Shown: one piece after another, positions 21,501 through 27,975 of the stretch | Layout of the letters: every line of letters begins with the position of its first letter | How positions within the stretch are numbered: position 1 is the stretch's first letter | Assembly: GCF_000280925.3 (NCBI RefSeq) | Contig: NZ_CP012109.1 | Coordinates: forward strand, 2,314,501 to 2,378,500 | Reading direction: 5' to 3' | Origin: Myxococcus hansupus | GTDB lineage: Bacteria > Myxococcota > Myxococcia > Myxococcales > Myxococcaceae | DNA length: 64,000 nucleotides | Notes under the pieces: model-generated | What the model was told of the DNA's origin: nothing | Database searches by the model: none | Seen by the model: only the letters and a program-made list of their open reading frames with translations | Position numbers and translations under genes: made by a program

Positions 21501-22784
21501 TCAGCGGGCGACCGCCACCGAGCTCGACTGGGGCGGCGCGGCGGGCTCGGGCTCCTCATCGGAGGGCGTGGCGGCGTCCTTCGGGAGGAAGGCGAGCAGA
21601 ATCAGCGCCGGGCCCGCGAGCAGCACGGTGCCGGCGAAGAAGGTGGGCCAGCCGAGCCACTCGGCCAGGTAGCCGGAGCTGGCGGAGATGAGGCGGTTGG
21701 CCACCGTGCCCAGGGCGGACAGCAGCGCGTACTGCGTGGCGCTGAAGCTCTTGTGGCACAGCGACATCAGGTACGCGGCGAAGGCCGTCACCGCCAGTCC
21801 TCCGCAGAGGTTGTCCACGGTGATGGTGGCCGCCAGCATCAAGTCATTCTTCCCCACCAGCGCCAGCCCCATGAACATCAGGTTGGTGAGGGCCTGCGCC
21901 GCGCCGAAGATGAAGAGGCTGCGCCGGGTGCCCAGCTTCACCATCAGCACGCCGGCCAGCAGGCCGCCCGCGATGGTGGACACCATGCCCAGGCCCTTGC
22001 TGAGCGCGCCAATTTCCGTGTTGGAGAAGCCGAGCTCCTTGTAGAAGGGCGTCACCATGCCCGCGGCGATGGCGTCCCCCAGCTTGTAGAGGACAAGGAA
22101 CAGCAGGACGGGCACGGCGCCCTTGCGCGTGAAGTACTCCGCGAAGGGCTTCACCACCGCGTCCGCGAGGTTGCGCGGGGGCTTGGTGCCTTGGGGCTCG
22201 GTGGCCAGCAGCGTGGCCACCACGCCCACGCCCATCAGCAGGCCCATGATGAAGTACGTCTGCGACCAGCCGACGACGTCCGACAGCGTCAGGGCCAGGG
22301 CGCCCGCGGTGAGCATGCCCAGGCGGTAGCCGGTGATGTAGGTGGAGTTGCCGAGTCCGCGCTCCTCCACGGTGAGGATGTCCGTGCGCCACGCGTCCGC
22401 GACGATGTCCTGGCTGGCGGACAGGAACGTCACCAGCACCGCCATGGCGGCCATGGCCACCGGCGCCTCGCGCGGATTCAAGAGGCCCATGGCGGCGATG
22501 GCGCCCATGAGCAGCACCTGCGTCACCAGCATCCAGCCCCGCCGCCGCCCCAGGAAGGGCAGGGTGTAGCGGTCCATCAGCGGCGCCCAGAGCACCTTGA
22601 AGGTGTAGGGCATGCTCACGAGGGCGAAGACGCCAATCGTCTTGAGATTGACGCCTTCGTCCTTCATCCACGCCGACAGCGTGACGCCCGTCAACCACAG
22701 GGGCAGGCCCGAGGCGAAACCAACGGCCACGAGCAGCCAGATGCGCGGGCTCTTGAGAACGGCGAGGAGGGAGGGCTTGGACAT
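21501..22784 (-). CDS. AmpG-like MFS transporter (muropeptide permease family)
   Basis: A 427-aa inner-membrane protein with about 12 hydrophobic helices. The first loop SGLPLWLTGVTLSAWMKDEG and the following TFKVLWAPLMDRYTLPFLGRR match the AmpG/AT-1 branch of the major facilitator family, which imports anhydro-muropeptides during cell-wall recycling. The helix pair with SASQDIVADAWRTDILTVEE also fits AmpG. Substrate is inferred from family only. It lies 87 bp after the lipoprotein gene of the caspase operon and could be read from it. Confidence 0.88.
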   Translation of the reverse strand: MSKPSLLAVLKSPRIWLLVAVGFASGLPLWLTGVTLSAWMKDEGVNLKTIGVFALVSMPYTFKVLWAPLMDRYTLPFLGRRRGWMLVTQVLLMGAIAAMGLLNPREAPVAMAAMAVLVTFLSASQDIVADAWRTDILTVEERGLGNSTYITGYRLGMLTAGALALTLSDVVGWSQTYFIMGLLMGVGVVATLLATEPQGTKPPRNLADAVVKPFAEYFTRKGAVPVLLFLVLYKLGDAIAAGMVTPFYKELGFSNTEIGALSKGLGMVSTIAGGLLAGVLMVKLGTRRSLFIFGAAQALTNLMFMGLALVGKNDLMLAATITVDNLCGGLAVTAFAAYLMSLCHKSFSATQYALLSALGTVANRLISASSGYLAEWLGWPTFFAGTVLLAGPALILLAFLPKDAATPSDEEPEPAAPPQSSSVAVAR

Positions 22785-22871: not shown

Positions 22872-23831
22872 CTAGCCGTCCAGCGCGGAGAAGTCCGGGC
22901 AGGTGGCGCGCTCGCCCTCGGTGGGGTTGAAGAAGTCCCAGCTTCGCGCCGTGAAGGTGACGCGGCCCTGGGCGTTCCAGCACTCGGTGTACCTCGCCCC
23001 CCGGATGTCGCCGCTCAGCACGTCCAGCACCGCCATGCCCCGGCCGTCCGGCGCCCAGCGCGTCGTCAGGCCCAAATCCTCCAGCAGGCCGCCCGGGACG
23101 AGGTCCTGCCCCGGCATGAGGAAGTGCATCTCGCCCAGACCGCCCTGGGCCTCCCGGTATGTGTAGCGCGACACGGGGAAGGCGCCGTCCTTGGGCGTGA
23201 AGGTCAGCTCCACGCGGGTGGGCAGGGCCTTCGTCTGGTAGTGGATGTCCAGGCGCCGCAGCACCGTCACGTCGGTGGCGGGGAGGCCTTCCCGCTCCGA
23301 GCGCTCCACGTCCAGGTGGAGGCTCCCCACGCCCTTGCGGATGCCCGCGTCCGCCTCGAAGGTGCCGCTCAGGAAGGCCCACCAGGCCGCATCGCCGCCG
23401 CCCGTCTTGCGGTACTCGAGCTGGTAGTCGAAGCGCATCACCTCGCGCGTCATGACGAAGCGCACGTCGAAGCCCGCGTGGTTCTGGGCGCGGAACGGCC
23501 CCCAGACGCGCCGGTCCGGCTCGCGTGTCGTGGGCGGGAGGCTCCGGATGTCCTCCAGCAGGGACAGCAGCGCGTCCACGCCCGCGTTGAAGGCGCGGCC
23601 CGTCTCCTCCGTGTCGCCCATCAGCTCGGACGTCTCGCCCAGGCGCACCACCAGTCCGGACGTGCGCGTCGCCAGCCCGCCGCCAGCGCGGCCCTGGCCC
23701 TTCTGGGGGAGCTTCGCGGCCAGGTCCTCGCGGCGTGGCAGCGCGTTGAGGAACTCCAAGTCATCGTTGGAGAAGTCGCCGCCGCACGCGGCCAGCGCGA
23801 GGCACAGACAGGCCACCGGAAGGTGTCGCAT
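22872..23831 (-). CDS. Predicted lipoprotein, paralogue of the one at 26788-27768
   Basis: A 319-aa product with signal MRHLPVACLCLALAACGGDF (lipobox AAC). GGAG lies 6 bases before the ATG at 23831; an upstream in-frame ATG at 23846 overlaps the caspase stop and has no ribosome site. The mature protein has FNAGVDALLSLLEDIRSLPP, RVWGPFRAQNHAGFDV, WAFLSGTFEADAGIRKG and GDIRGARYTECWNAQGRVTF. The same landmarks occur in the same order in the lipoprotein at the other end of this operon. Last gene of the five-gene run. Biochemical role unknown; position implies an envelope role linked to the caspase and sigma factor. Confidence 0.85.
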   Translation of the reverse strand: MRHLPVACLCLALAACGGDFSNDDLEFLNALPRREDLAAKLPQKGQGRAGGGLATRTSGLVVRLGETSELMGDTEETGRAFNAGVDALLSLLEDIRSLPPTTREPDRRVWGPFRAQNHAGFDVRFVMTREVMRFDYQLEYRKTGGGDAAWWAFLSGTFEADAGIRKGVGSLHLDVERSEREGLPATDVTVLRRLDIHYQTKALPTRVELTFTPKDGAFPVSRYTYREAQGGLGEMHFLMPGQDLVPGGLLEDLGLTTRWAPDGRGMAVLDVLSGDIRGARYTECWNAQGRVTFTARSWDFFNPTEGERATCPDFSALDG

Positions 23832-23842
23832 CACGTGCTCCT

Positions 23843-25444
23843 TCATGGCTGGTACGTCACCAGCGCGCCCAGCTCCCAGAAGCCCAGCGAGCGTTGCGCG
23901 TCGACGTTGTAGAGGAGGTAGTGCGCCCGGGCGCGCGCGGTGAGGTGCAGCCGGGAGAACGGATTCCAGCGCACCCCCGCCACCACGCCGGGGGAGAACA
24001 TGGCGAAGGTCTGGTCCGGAAACGCCGCGTCCTCGAAGTCGCGGCGCATGTGGAGCCACGCCACCCGCGCGCCCAGGAACGGCGCCACCCGTCCCAGGGG
24101 CCACTCGGACGTCAGCGTCGTTCCCACGCTCGTCATCGCGTAGCGGTATGCCGGGCCGGTCAGCGACGGCAGCATCAGCACCGCGCGCCGGCTGCCCGTG
24201 GCCGCGTCCACGCCCCACACCCAGTCGCGGCGGAAGTAGTCGTGGAGTTGCGCCTCAGCGCCCACCATGCCCACCGACAGGAACAGCGCGTCGCGCGTGG
24301 GCGCATCGAAGTAGGACTGCACGCCGCCGGACAGTCCCACCGTCCACCATGCGCCGCCGTCGCCGCCGCGAAGGGCGCCTTTCACCGGGTCATCGGAGAA
24401 GGGCGCGTCCTGGAGGCGGGACTCCTGGAGCACCGCCTGCTGGCCCCGGCGCACCTCCACCTCGCCAATGCGCAGGCGGTCCGGCAGCCGGCGCTTCACG
24501 CGGTACGTTCCGGGCGCCAGGGCCACGCGGCGCTCCACGTCCGCCGCCTTGTCCAGCTCCGCAACCACAAGCCCGCCGCCGTCCACGAAGTAGTAGGTGC
24601 CCACCGGCGCCGCGCCTGGCACCACCAACCCACCGCCGCTGGCGCGGAGGTCCGTGAGCACCAGGTCGCCGTTGCCCGCGAGGTCGTAACTGAACGTCGG
24701 ATGCTGCGGCCCCGCGGAGCTGGCGGCCGTGTCCGCGACGGTGCGTGCGTACGCATGGGAGTACGCCTCGAACAGCGTCACCCGCCCGTCGCCGCTGCGG
24801 TCCGCGTCCCCCAGCAGGCCGCTCGTCAGGTGGTGCGAGAAGTAGCTGCCCGCCAGCGCGTCGGACTCCTGGGAGTCCTCGTCCGCCGCGCTGGAGGTGA
24901 GGATGACCAGCCCGCGTGCGTCGCGTCCCGCGCCGGATTCGATGTCGAACGCGGGCGCGCGCCGAGCGCCCTTGGCGCGCGTCATCGCGCCCGAGCGGCA
25001 GGAGTCCAGGATGGCGATGCGGATGTCCGAGGGCGCGTCCGCCAGCCGGCGCTTGAGGTCGTCGAAGGCCAGCCGCGTGGCGCCTAGCCGCAGCGCGCCG
25101 TCCTTCGCGTGGCCGGAGTAGTAGACGAACAGCGCGGTGCGCTCGCCTCGCTCCCGGGCCGCGCGGGCGCGCTGCTCCAGCTCCGACAGCGCGGCGAGGA
25201 AGCCCCGCGCGTCCTCGTTCAACAGCAGCTTCGCGTCCGCGGGGGCCACGCCGCCCAGGCGCTGGAGGAGCGCGTGCATCTTCCTCGCGTCGTCCCTCGC
25301 GAAGCGCAGCGGGCGCGTGTCGGCGCCGCCCTCGTCGTTGCCGGCCACCAGCGCGAAGCGGTGCAGCACCTCCGCGTTCGCGGTGCTCGCCACCAGGATG
25401 AGCGCCATCGACAGGGCGCGCGCGAAGGCGGGCAGGGGACTCAT
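23843..25444 (-). CDS. Exported caspase-family (C14) protease with predicted C-terminal beta-barrel
   Basis: A 533-aa protein with a signal peptide ending near STANA-E. Residues 26-250 form a caspase/metacaspase-like fold: FALVAGNDEGGADTRPLRFA, the catalytic His at 112 in FVYYSGHAKDG, and the catalytic Cys at 149 in IAILDSCRSGAM. Residues 250-340 form a beta-rich linker (GTYYFVDGGGLVVAELDKAA). From about residue 360 alternating hydrophobic and aromatic strands (AWWTVGLSGGVQSYFDAP; APFLGARVAWLHMRR; LGFWELGALVTYQP) suggest an outer-membrane beta-barrel. Its start overlaps the anti-sigma stop by 4 bp. Bacterial C14 proteases usually cleave after basic residues; the target here is unknown. Confidence 0.88.
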   Translation of the reverse strand: MSPLPAFARALSMALILVASTANAEVLHRFALVAGNDEGGADTRPLRFARDDARKMHALLQRLGGVAPADAKLLLNEDARGFLAALSELEQRARAARERGERTALFVYYSGHAKDGALRLGATRLAFDDLKRRLADAPSDIRIAILDSCRSGAMTRAKGARRAPAFDIESGAGRDARGLVILTSSAADEDSQESDALAGSYFSHHLTSGLLGDADRSGDGRVTLFEAYSHAYARTVADTAASSAGPQHPTFSYDLAGNGDLVLTDLRASGGGLVVPGAAPVGTYYFVDGGGLVVAELDKAADVERRVALAPGTYRVKRRLPDRLRIGEVEVRRGQQAVLQESRLQDAPFSDDPVKGALRGGDGGAWWTVGLSGGVQSYFDAPTRDALFLSVGMVGAEAQLHDYFRRDWVWGVDAATGSRRAVLMLPSLTGPAYRYAMTSVGTTLTSEWPLGRVAPFLGARVAWLHMRRDFEDAAFPDQTFAMFSPGVVAGVRWNPFSRLHLTARARAHYLLYNVDAQRSLGFWELGALVTYQP

Positions 25445-26226
25445 GGCTTCAGCAGCACCCAGTGCGTCTGTTCGCCGGGGACCTCCAGCGGGGCCATGCG
25501 CACCACCTCGCCGTCGGCCTTCTCGAAGGCACGCCGGGCGGCCTCCGCCAGCGTTTCCATGGGCAGCGGCTCATCGCTGAGGACCAGGATGACTCGCTCG
25601 GCGCCGGAGCCGGTGAACTCCCAGCCGCTGGGCAGCCACTGTTGGTCGCTGCCGGGCCCCACCGGGGCGCTGGCGCCGCTCTCCGGGTGCAGCGGTGACA
25701 CCTCGCCAATGGCGTCCACGGACAGGGCCGCCACGTAGCGGTGGGTCCCCGCCTTGTAGCCCAGCATCACCCGCTCACCGGGGTCCAGCGGTTCGGGGGT
25801 TCCGGGCGTCGCCTCTCGTTGCGGTCCCAGCCCGCCGCCGATGCGCAGCTCCGCCGCCGTGCCGCCCTTGAGCCGGTTGAGGCCCAGACCTTCCGTGGAC
25901 GTGGCGTCCGGGGTCAGGAGCGGGCGCACCAGCACCACCACCAGGAGCGACGCGGCGATGGCCACCGTCGTAGCCACCCAGCGGCGCGGGGGCGGGCGCG
26001 CGGCGTCCTGGCGCCGCTGACGTTGCAGGGCGCGCTCCACGCCGGCTTCGAAGCGTTCGAAGGGCACCTCCGCTTCGAAGCGCGCCTGGGCGTCGTCGAG
26101 CCCGCGCAGGGCCTGGGCGCACGTCTCGCATCCGGCCGCATGGGCCTGGACGCGGGCGGCCTCGGCGGCGGCCAGCTCTCCGGCGCGCAGCCGGCGCAGG
26201 GTCCATTCCGATTCATGCGCGCTCAT
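25441..26226 (-). CDS. Anti-sigma factor with N-terminal zinc-binding motif and one membrane span
   Basis: A 261-aa product. HAAGCETC (His29, Cys33, Cys36) is the H-x3-C-x2-C zinc motif of ZAS-type anti-sigma factors. A single membrane helix lies at about 84-101 (ATTVAIAASLLVVVLV), placing residues 102-261 outside the cytoplasm (YKAGTHRYVAALSVDAIGEV). It overlaps the sigma-factor gene by 4 bp (ATGA) and the caspase gene by 4 bp. It is therefore very likely the regulator of the sigma factor just upstream, releasing it when the outer domain senses a signal. The start MSAHESEWTL is chosen from the overlap. Confidence 0.88.
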   Translation of the reverse strand: MSAHESEWTLRRLRAGELAAAEAARVQAHAAGCETCAQALRGLDDAQARFEAEVPFERFEAGVERALQRQRRQDAARPPPRRWVATTVAIAASLLVVVLVRPLLTPDATSTEGLGLNRLKGGTAAELRIGGGLGPQREATPGTPEPLDPGERVMLGYKAGTHRYVAALSVDAIGEVSPLHPESGASAPVGPGSDQQWLPSGWEFTGSGAERVILVLSDEPLPMETLAEAARRAFEKADGEVVRMAPLEVPGEQTHWVLLKP

Positions 26227-26765
26227 CGGACCGTCAGCTCCTCTCCGCCCAGCTCGGCGAAGCGCTCCAGCCGCTTGCGGATGGTGGGCACCGAGCGCCC
26301 CAGCAACGCGGCCACCTCTTCCAGTGTCATCCCATCCACGTGGTAGTGGACGGCGGCCGCCTGCGTCTCCGCGTCCACGCGCCCGAGCAGCCGCCGCACC
26401 AGGTCCCGCGTCTCCATGTCGTCCTGTCCGCCATGGCCTTCGGGGCGGGTGGCGGCGTCCCGCTCGAACCACTGGCGCCAGCCCGCGCGCTCACCGCGGA
26501 GCTGGTTGAGGCAGTGGTGGGTGGCGATCTTCATCAGCCACGTCAGCGGCGAGGCGTCGGCGCGGAAGTCCTCGGCGTGGGTGAGGGCGCGGGCGAACAC
26601 GTCATGCATCGCATCCTCCGCCTTCGCCGGGTCCTTCAGCAGATAGCGGCAGCGTCCTAGCACGCTGCCGCCGTGTTTCGTATACAGCTCCCGCAGGAAG
26701 TCCCGCCGGTCCAGTCGTGGACCGCCGGGAACGACCTGCAGGGATGGCCCACGTGTTCCCGTCAC
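26223..26765 (-). CDS. ECF-type RNA polymerase sigma factor
   Basis: A 180-aa sigma-70-family factor with only regions 2 and 4. Region 2: RYLLKDPAKAEDAMHDVFAR, then ASPLTWLMKIATHHCLNQLR, the -10-binding helix. Region 4: VHYHVDGMTLEEVAALLGRS and VPTIRKRLERF, a helix-turn-helix for the -35 element. It is followed by its anti-sigma gene with a 4-bp overlap and preceded 22 bp upstream by a lipoprotein gene. This packing suggests the sigma factor controls its own five-gene operon, but I could not identify its promoter sequence. Confidence 0.93.
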   Translation of the reverse strand: MTGTRGPSLQVVPGGPRLDRRDFLRELYTKHGGSVLGRCRYLLKDPAKAEDAMHDVFARALTHAEDFRADASPLTWLMKIATHHCLNQLRGERAGWRQWFERDAATRPEGHGGQDDMETRDLVRRLLGRVDAETQAAAVHYHVDGMTLEEVAALLGRSVPTIRKRLERFAELGGEELTVR

Positions 26766-26787
26766 GCGGCGCAGACTACCGCGCGTG

Positions 26788-27768
26788 TCACAGCGTGGAG
26801 TAGACAGCCGTGCTGAAGTTTCCGCAGGCGCTCACCGCGCCGTATCCCAGGGCCGGGTTGACGCTGACGATGAAGTAGGCGCTGAGGAAGTTGCTGTCCC
26901 AGCATTCGCTCAGAGTCGCCTCACCGAACAGGTCCCCGCCCGACACCTTGATGTCCGAGCGGCCAGCCCCCGTGGCCTCCCAGCGGCTCTTGATGGACAG
27001 ATTCTCCAGCGCCGAGCGCAGCGGGTCGGTGTCGATGTTCTTGCGGATGACGAAGTCCAGCTCCCCACCCGCGTTTGCCTCCTGGTGGAAGCGGTAGTCA
27101 GCGTCCACGCGCGAGCCCGGCCGCTCCTCGTCACGCACCTGCCGGAACTCCGCCTCCACCGACGCCTCCGCGGACGCGTTGGCGCGCGCGTAGCGAATCT
27201 CCGCCGTGCCCACGTCGTCACCACTCACGCCGGGCAGCGTCTGGGCCTTGTCCCAGTCGATGAGCAGCTCGCCTGCGCCGAAGCCGCGCACGCGCTCGCC
27301 GTTGGCGTCCACCGAGGCGGTGTGAGTGCCGGAGAGGAAGGCCACGAAGGCGCTGTCCGCCTCGTTCTTGCCCTTGCCCTCCAGGACCCAGGTGTAGCTG
27401 TTCGCTTCGGTGCGGGTGACGGTCAGCTTCCACGTCACGGCGTCGAGCGCGCCGGTGTGTGGGCCCCACACCGCGACATCCCCTTCGATGGACGTGGGCA
27501 CGTGCCGGACGATGTCCTCGATGAGGTTGAGCACGCTCGCGGCGCCGCCGTTGAAGGTGGCCGCCGCCGCCACCGTGGCGCGGTAGTACTCCGCCTGCTC
27601 TCCCTCTCCGTAGAAGGCCGTCAGGGCCTGGCCGTTGTTCCTGGAGGGCGAGCGCATCTCCACCGACTGCTTCGAGGGCAGTCCGTCCCGGAAGCCGTCC
27701 TCCTCGCTATTGGTGGCGTCACAACCCGTCAGCAGTACGGCGGCACACAACAGGCTCTTGCGCAGCAT
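26788..27768 (-). CDS. Predicted lipoprotein, paralogue of the one at 22872-23831
   Basis: A 326-aa product with signal MLRKSLLCAAVLLTGCDATN (lipobox LTGC). The mature part has FNGGAASVLNLIEDIVRHVP, VAVWGPHTGALDAVTW, AFLSGTHTASVDANGERV, and GGDLFGEATLSECWDSNFLS. These align in order with the lipoprotein at the far end of the operon. A C-terminal addition (GYGAVSACGNFSTAVY) is not shared. It is the first gene of the caspase/sigma operon, ending 22 bp before the sigma factor, and is divergent from the nucleotidyltransferase. Function unknown. Confidence 0.85.
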   Translation of the reverse strand: MLRKSLLCAAVLLTGCDATNSEEDGFRDGLPSKQSVEMRSPSRNNGQALTAFYGEGEQAEYYRATVAAAATFNGGAASVLNLIEDIVRHVPTSIEGDVAVWGPHTGALDAVTWKLTVTRTEANSYTWVLEGKGKNEADSAFVAFLSGTHTASVDANGERVRGFGAGELLIDWDKAQTLPGVSGDDVGTAEIRYARANASAEASVEAEFRQVRDEERPGSRVDADYRFHQEANAGGELDFVIRKNIDTDPLRSALENLSIKSRWEATGAGRSDIKVSGGDLFGEATLSECWDSNFLSAYFIVSVNPALGYGAVSACGNFSTAVYSTL

Positions 27769-27975
27769 GGTCCACGTTTCCTTCGAACGGCCCCCGGCGG
27801 GCCGTGCAGCAGCGTGTCTGCCTTCATGGACACAGCACGGCCGGAAAACAGAAAAGGCGCCCGCCGGGTGCGCGAAACGCCCTGAATCCCGATGCTTGTA
27901 GGTTGGCTGCCCGCTCCCCAGGCATCTATTCCCCGCAGGCAGACGGCCGAAATTCGCAGTCCCTACCTTTCGGCC

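Follow-up and report, generated by a model that had tools for sequence, protein, structure and literature searches.

A candidate transenvelope switch encoded by a sigma factor/caspase operon of Myxococcus hansupus

What connects an exported caspase-like protease with the extracytoplasmic function (ECF) sigma factor encoded two genes upstream of it? The question is raised by a five-gene operon in a 64,000-nucleotide stretch of the Myxococcus hansupus genome (a single contig of 9.49 Mb; NZ_CP012109.1, positions 2,314,501-2,378,500), which we analyzed as a whole and refer to as the window; all coordinates are window positions. According to the list of open reading frames of the window, the minus strand carries in order the genes for lipoprotein A (lipA), the ECF sigma factor, an anti-sigma factor, the caspase-like protease and lipoprotein B (lipB), with intergenic gaps of 22, -4, -4 and 11 bp. 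The coordinates and gaps had been given in a first-pass annotation and were confirmed. The gene identities assigned there also stood: Pfam matched the sigma factor and the caspase, the cysteines of the anti-sigma zinc motif are invariant in orthologues, and lipA encodes the lipobox LLTGC. That annotation had missed a barrel fused to the caspase, homology between the lipoproteins, a DUF4384-like domain, a conserved promoter and a set of conserved Lys-Gly sites. With these features included, we propose, at a probability of roughly 0.55, that the operon encodes a transenvelope switch, in which a self-releasing caspase tethered to the outer membrane would act as the site-1 protease of the ECF anti-sigma factor.

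The protease matched the caspase family PF00656 above the Pfam cut-off (E=6e-11). The catalytic dyad motifs SGH and D-x-C-x-[SA]-G are present and align with those of solved metacaspases, and the dyad residues H112 and C149 are invariant in 57 aligned caspase sequences. The AlphaFold2 model of the protein (mean predicted local distance difference test score, pLDDT, of 82) comprises an N-terminal signal-like helix, the caspase domain, a small beta domain (residues ~270-347) and a barrel; the predicted caspase fold scored Z ~20 to caspases, with a root-mean-square deviation of ~3 Å over ~200 residues. The eight strands of the C-terminal region (residues 366-531) were modeled mostly with high pLDDT, and in Foldseek searches they matched NspA (TM(target) 0.81, E=1.5e-8), OmpA and OmpX, while homologues matched the Opacity porin and OMP_b-brl Pfam families in sequence. 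The C-terminal region is therefore strongly predicted to be an eight-stranded outer-membrane barrel, to which the caspase domain, exported to the periplasm, is strongly predicted to be joined by a flexible linker. The earlier suggestion of a protease located at the outer membrane, made without knowledge of the barrel, gains support from it. The caspase domain also contains an EF-hand-like loop (D215-E226) with D215, D219 and E226 invariant in the 57 sequences, for which the Pfam EF-hand support was weak. A 739-residue caspase-barrel protein without an adjacent anti-sigma gene (locus L041, 7053-9272) retains two Lys-Gly dipeptides, one following the Cys and one located 243 residues beyond that Cys.

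The sigma factor contains sigma-70 regions 2 and 4 only, both above the Pfam cut-offs (Sigma70_r2, E=8e-15; r4_2, E=1e-6). The anti-sigma gene overlaps the sigma gene by 4 bp. Although zf-HC2 fell just under its cut-off in the protein of the window (21.6 versus 22.2 bits), C33 and C36 are invariant in orthologues and H29 is nearly so; by its motif and its one membrane span the protein falls into the zinc-associated single-span anti-sigma class, and it presumably binds and inhibits its sigma factor. A DUF4384-like periplasmic domain was found in 18 of 24 anti-sigma orthologues. In the M. hansupus genome PF14326 at its default threshold gave no DUF4384 match, and a profile of the domain was used there instead. 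The genome contains six C14 genes, five of which adjoin a sigma gene or the gene of a DUF4384-like anti-sigma factor.

The same dipeptide recurs in the protease and in its presumed target. In the caspase, K158-G159, located in the loop after the catalytic Cys, is conserved in 57 of 57 sequences, and a Lys-Gly corresponding to K355-G356, in the linker between the caspase and the barrel, was found in 55 of 57. Residues 151-174 and 355-362, two of the few segments of the model with pLDDT below 50, each contain one of these dipeptides, and the caspases have on average 2.98 Lys-Gly dipeptides, compared with 1.15 expected from composition. Nearly every more distant caspase of the phylum that was examined has a Lys-Gly 7-13 residues after the Cys, and most full-length ones have a second 195-216 residues after it; the surrounding residues differ. 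In the anti-sigma factor, K120 is invariant in 24 orthologues, and 102 of 105 anti-sigma factors encoded next to a caspase have a Lys-Gly 5-29 residues past the membrane span, the three exceptions (Arg-Gly, Arg-Gly and Lys-Ser) still being basic. A stricter R-x-K-G motif was relaxed to Lys-Gly, since some sequences elsewhere in the phylum do not have the Arg at position -2. For unrelated caspases encoded on plasmids, the control set comprised two records, too few for comparison. Metacaspases cleave after Lys or Arg (PMC3501461), and the pattern suggests that the three conserved Lys-Gly sites are candidate cleavage sites, with the cut presumably made after the Lys.

Gene order was compared in 40 stretches, taken around paralogues of the M. 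hansupus genome and from its relatives (Myxococcus and neighbouring genera), and in 79 loci of a separate scan. Caspase orthologues were present in nearly every genome of the family. The order lipA-sigma-anti-sigma-caspase-lipB was dominant in both sets, and the co-conservation proposed as a check in the first-pass annotation was borne out, as the five genes were complete and in order in 42 of the 79 loci, mostly with -4/-4 overlaps. Orthologous loci show identical or similar gaps, so the five-gene spacing is not due to chance. The five-gene form was also found in Anaeromyxobacter (L126, L127, L260 and L261) and, both in further families of the order and beyond it, at L269, L270, L273, L274, L275 and L282, all within Myxococcota. 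Among the variants, some Archangium-type genomes have a second copy without lipA (L054, L055 and L058), and two loci (L280 and L286) have the order sigma-anti-sigma-caspase-lipoprotein-lipoprotein. Adjacency of the anti-sigma and caspase genes is nearly constant across the phylum. Dispersal of the genes in relatives, which would have argued against a single system, did not occur. Members of the LipA/LipB family are, however, also encoded apart from caspases in several genomes, and exclusive association of the lipoproteins with caspase operons was accordingly rejected as a strict rule.

The flanking genes vary while the five-gene block persists. A divergent gene upstream was not found at more distant loci. 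Downstream, 87 bp from lipB, lies a gene for an AmpG-like transporter (21501-22784); it was rejected as a sixth member because outside Myxococcus, Corallococcus and Citreicoccus it does not adjoin the operon. A homologue of only ~35% identity occupies its position in some loci of Myxococcus and Pyxidicoccus. The operon also decays or is broken as a whole. Four genomes of the genus Myxococcus (G065, G075, G076 and G078) have no intact operon but only remnants: the anti-sigma region and the initial 63 codons of lipA survive, whereas the sigma gene has lost its first part, and the caspase gene and lipB are mostly gone; in a fifth genome (G077) the caspase gene is interrupted by an insertion with an IS66-like transposase. 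M. xanthus is probably one of the four and would then have no intact copy of the five genes, as five metacaspases were counted in strain DK1622 in 2012, compared with the six C14 genes found here.

Alignment of the regions upstream of lipA revealed a bipartite element, TTTCTGTTT-N12-GTGTCCAT, shared by Myxococcus, Corallococcus, Archangium and several metagenome assemblies. In 34 of 57 upstream regions of the first gene the element occurs with a fixed 12-nt spacer under one strict pattern, and variants are visible in several others. Allowing up to two mismatches, the pattern matched the M. hansupus genome once (27826-27854) and a reversed-pattern control did not match at all. At the same tolerance, five genomes had a single match, whereas a sixth had three, and the idea of a wider regulon was set aside on this basis. 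A conserved promoter that occurs once in a genome suggests autoregulation, and the site is probably an autoregulated ECF promoter; we infer that it is read by the ECF sigma factor of the operon, with the operon as its main, perhaps only, target. In one Corallococcus-type genome (G018), further promoter-like matches with one and two mismatches (L254 and L255) are possible extra targets. The first-pass annotation had proposed a self-contained envelope sensing system, perhaps responding to predation, sporulation or kin contact. Persistence of the block across families with changing flanks, decay as a unit and the unique promoter-like site support its being self-contained; for a role in predation, sporulation or kin contact, our analysis provided no support.

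Taken together, these features can be arranged into the following working model. The barrel, lipoproteins A and B, or both would sense an outer-membrane signal that activates the caspase. The caspase would cut its own loop after K158, as self-activation, and the linker after K355, which would release it from the barrel. The freed caspase would cross the periplasm and cut the anti-sigma factor at K120-Gly, on the periplasmic side close to the inner membrane. The sigma factor would then be freed by cytoplasmic proteases and a general site-2 protease of the M50 type, a family with homologues in the M. hansupus genome, and would transcribe its own operon and so establish positive feedback. The release site at K355 would solve the problem of how an outer-membrane protease reaches a site beside the inner membrane, and because cleavage-like sites are conserved in both the protease and the anti-sigma factor, the hypothesis is directly testable. 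More tentatively, and with slightly less than even odds, we extend the proposal to a phylum-wide family of such switches, in which a barrel caspase would cut itself at two Lys-Gly sites and then the anti-sigma Lys-Gly, freeing the sigma factor for its own operon.

Several observations weigh against this model. With the anti-sigma factor in the inner membrane and the barrel in the outer membrane, the model works geometrically only if the caspase is released; each of its proteolytic steps is hypothetical. Lys-Gly is a short motif that could be structural, and the counted sequences share ancestry, so that the counts demonstrate constraint but do not provide a calibrated probability. The promoter is atypical for ECF sigma factors, as its -35 region contains no AAC, and we assume that this sigma factor uses it. 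In addition, a divergent ECF sigma/anti-sigma-like/caspase operon located ~30 kb before the window (L037, 7301-10373) encodes a caspase that ends in a barrel-like region and has neither of the two Lys-Gly sites, yet the adjacent anti-sigma factor has Gln-Lys-Gly after the span; the caspase of L038 has no linker Lys-Gly.

The caspase and lipoproteins could instead be output only, with the sigma/anti-sigma pair sensing stress by other means, the caspase serving as an induced protease for envelope quality control or processing, and the anti-sigma Lys-Gly merely marking the start of the folded domain. Indeed, the dipeptide directly precedes the first predicted strand of the DUF4384-like domain, and the promoter would drive the whole operon. 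However, Lys-Gly was found in none of the 10 DUF4384 proteins other than anti-sigma factors, and two unstructured segments of the caspase conserve this dipeptide as well. The four anti-sigma factors without a nearby caspase are divided: loss of Lys-Gly from two (L240 and L241) favours the switch, whereas its retention in two others (L170, from the M. hansupus genome, and L232) speaks for the output-only arrangement and counts against the switch, although a paralogue may cut these two in trans. At L170 (5091-7038, at 8.32 Mb of the genome) the sigma gene is followed by an anti-sigma gene encoding Arg-Ile-Lys-Gly and then by a gene for a 204-residue barrel-like protein that has no caspase domain, an arrangement suggestive of caspase loss. 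We consider an output-only role unlikely. Processing by the caspase of itself alone, with another periplasmic protease making the first anti-sigma cut, as DegS does for RseA, appears less probable still. It would fit the use of general site-1 proteases by other ECF systems (DegS/RseA; PMC10028731) and the fact that the self-processing sites are the most strongly conserved, but not the presence of the same type of cleavage-like site in both partners or the nearly invariable adjacency of their genes across the phylum. A role as an effector of cell death or developmental lysis with sigma-controlled expression, proposed in general terms for Myxococcus metacaspases (PMC3501461), is very improbable for an enzyme that is predicted to be periplasmic and outer-membrane bound, has its own regulator and promoter, belongs to an operon lost in a whole Myxococcus clade and is tied to death by nothing found here.

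Several described systems are comparable with the operon. DegS is an inner-membrane serine protease that senses unfolded porins. In the E. coli DegS-RseA-RpoE pathway, an envelope protease likewise makes the first cut in a single-span anti-sigma factor (PMC10028731), whereas here the candidate first cutter would be a cysteine protease that carries its own outer-membrane barrel. The closest known mechanism is that of Csx29, a caspase-like protease that cleaves Csx30, the inhibitor of CASP-sigma (PMC10028731). The operon would work alike, by proteolysis of a sigma inhibitor, but is not a member of that type III-E system: Csx29 is a CHAT rather than a C14 protease, cytoplasmic and RNA-activated through Cas7-11, and has no barrel, membrane anti-sigma factor or lipoproteins, whereas the protease studied here matched PF00656 and no cas-like neighbour was present among the open reading frames at 19.8-33 kb of the window. 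The ECF54 groups resemble the operon in having caspase-like proteins in the context of an ECF sigma factor, with CHAT or subtilase neighbours and proposed proteolytic control, but are described as lacking an anti-sigma factor (PMC8999054), which is present here.

Operons that combine a metacaspase with a sigma-70-family gene were reported in 2012 for four of the five M. xanthus DK1622 metacaspases and for Anaeromyxobacter, Haliangium, Sorangium, Ralstonia and Fibrobacter (Asplund-Samuelsson 2012, PMC3501461). The locus analyzed here has both genes in one predicted operon, and its core trio is of that kind. The earlier impression that no named system has this composition thus holds for all five genes together but not for the sigma/metacaspase pair. 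The 2012 report mentions no anti-sigma factor and gives no mechanism; the barrel, the lipoprotein pair, the Lys-Gly sites and the promoter are described here. In the open-licence literature we found no paper that connects cleavage of an anti-sigma factor with a metacaspase. Few native substrates are known for bacterial metacaspases, two decades after these enzymes were first recognised; at this locus, the sequence points to a candidate substrate, the adjacent anti-sigma factor, together with three candidate cut sites and a readout, the operon promoter. If the proposal is true, bacteria would natively employ a metacaspase as a protease in signalling, and release of a tethered protease would be a new route for signals from the outer membrane to the cytoplasm. 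The features of the locus are listed in the table.

Table. Genes and sequence features of the operon, in window coordinates.
Feature	Position	Strand	Description
lipA, lipoprotein A	26788..27768	-	326 amino acids; lipobox LLTGC; lipB homologue
ECF sigma factor	26223..26765	-	180 amino acids; GTG start; regions 2 and 4
Anti-sigma factor with zinc motif	25441..26226	-	261 amino acids; H29-x3-C33-x2-C36; single span ~82-102 (hydropathy); periplasmic DUF4384-like domain
Exported caspase-like protease with predicted C-terminal outer-membrane barrel	23843..25444	-	533 amino acids
lipB, lipoprotein B	22872..23831	-	319 amino acids; lipA homologue
Caspase (C14) domain, residues 29-252	24689..25360	-	Pfam, alignments, predicted fold (Z ~20)
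R156-A-K158-G159, candidate self-activation site	24968..24979	-	disordered loop after catalytic Cys149
K355-G356, candidate self-release site	24377..24382	-	disordered linker from beta domain to barrel
Predicted 8-stranded outer-membrane beta-barrel, residues 366-531	23852..24349	-	AlphaFold2 model, Foldseek, Pfam in homologues
Anti-sigma R118-L-K120-G121, candidate site-1 cleavage site (after Lys)	25864..25875	-	~15 residues outside the membrane span
Bipartite promoter-like site TTTCTGTTT-N12-GTGTCCAT	27826..27854	-	57 nt upstream of the lipA start codon

The two lipoproteins are homologous to each other (BLASTP E=2e-21, 27% identity), and neither matched a Pfam or NCBIfam family. In M. xanthus, Lys at position +2 directs lipoproteins to the inner membrane and Ala at +7 to the matrix (PMC3222651). 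Lipoprotein A has Asp at +2 and Glu at +7, and neither lipoprotein has +2 Lys or +7 Ala, so that the outer membrane is the likeliest location of both. Lipoprotein B was modeled with a pLDDT of 89 and without a clear fold match. No fold is claimed for the lipoproteins, as Foldseek returned no significant match and the best structural match, OspA (Z 8.0, 4.5 Å, 161 residues), was at chance level.

Two loci of the comparison deviate in other respects. In one metagenome-assembled genome, an extra ~840 bp separates the anti-sigma and caspase genes (L101, 6020-6860). A contig titled Comamonas sp. KCTC 72670 has the operon at 96% identity (L077), and is most likely a mislabelled myxobacterium.

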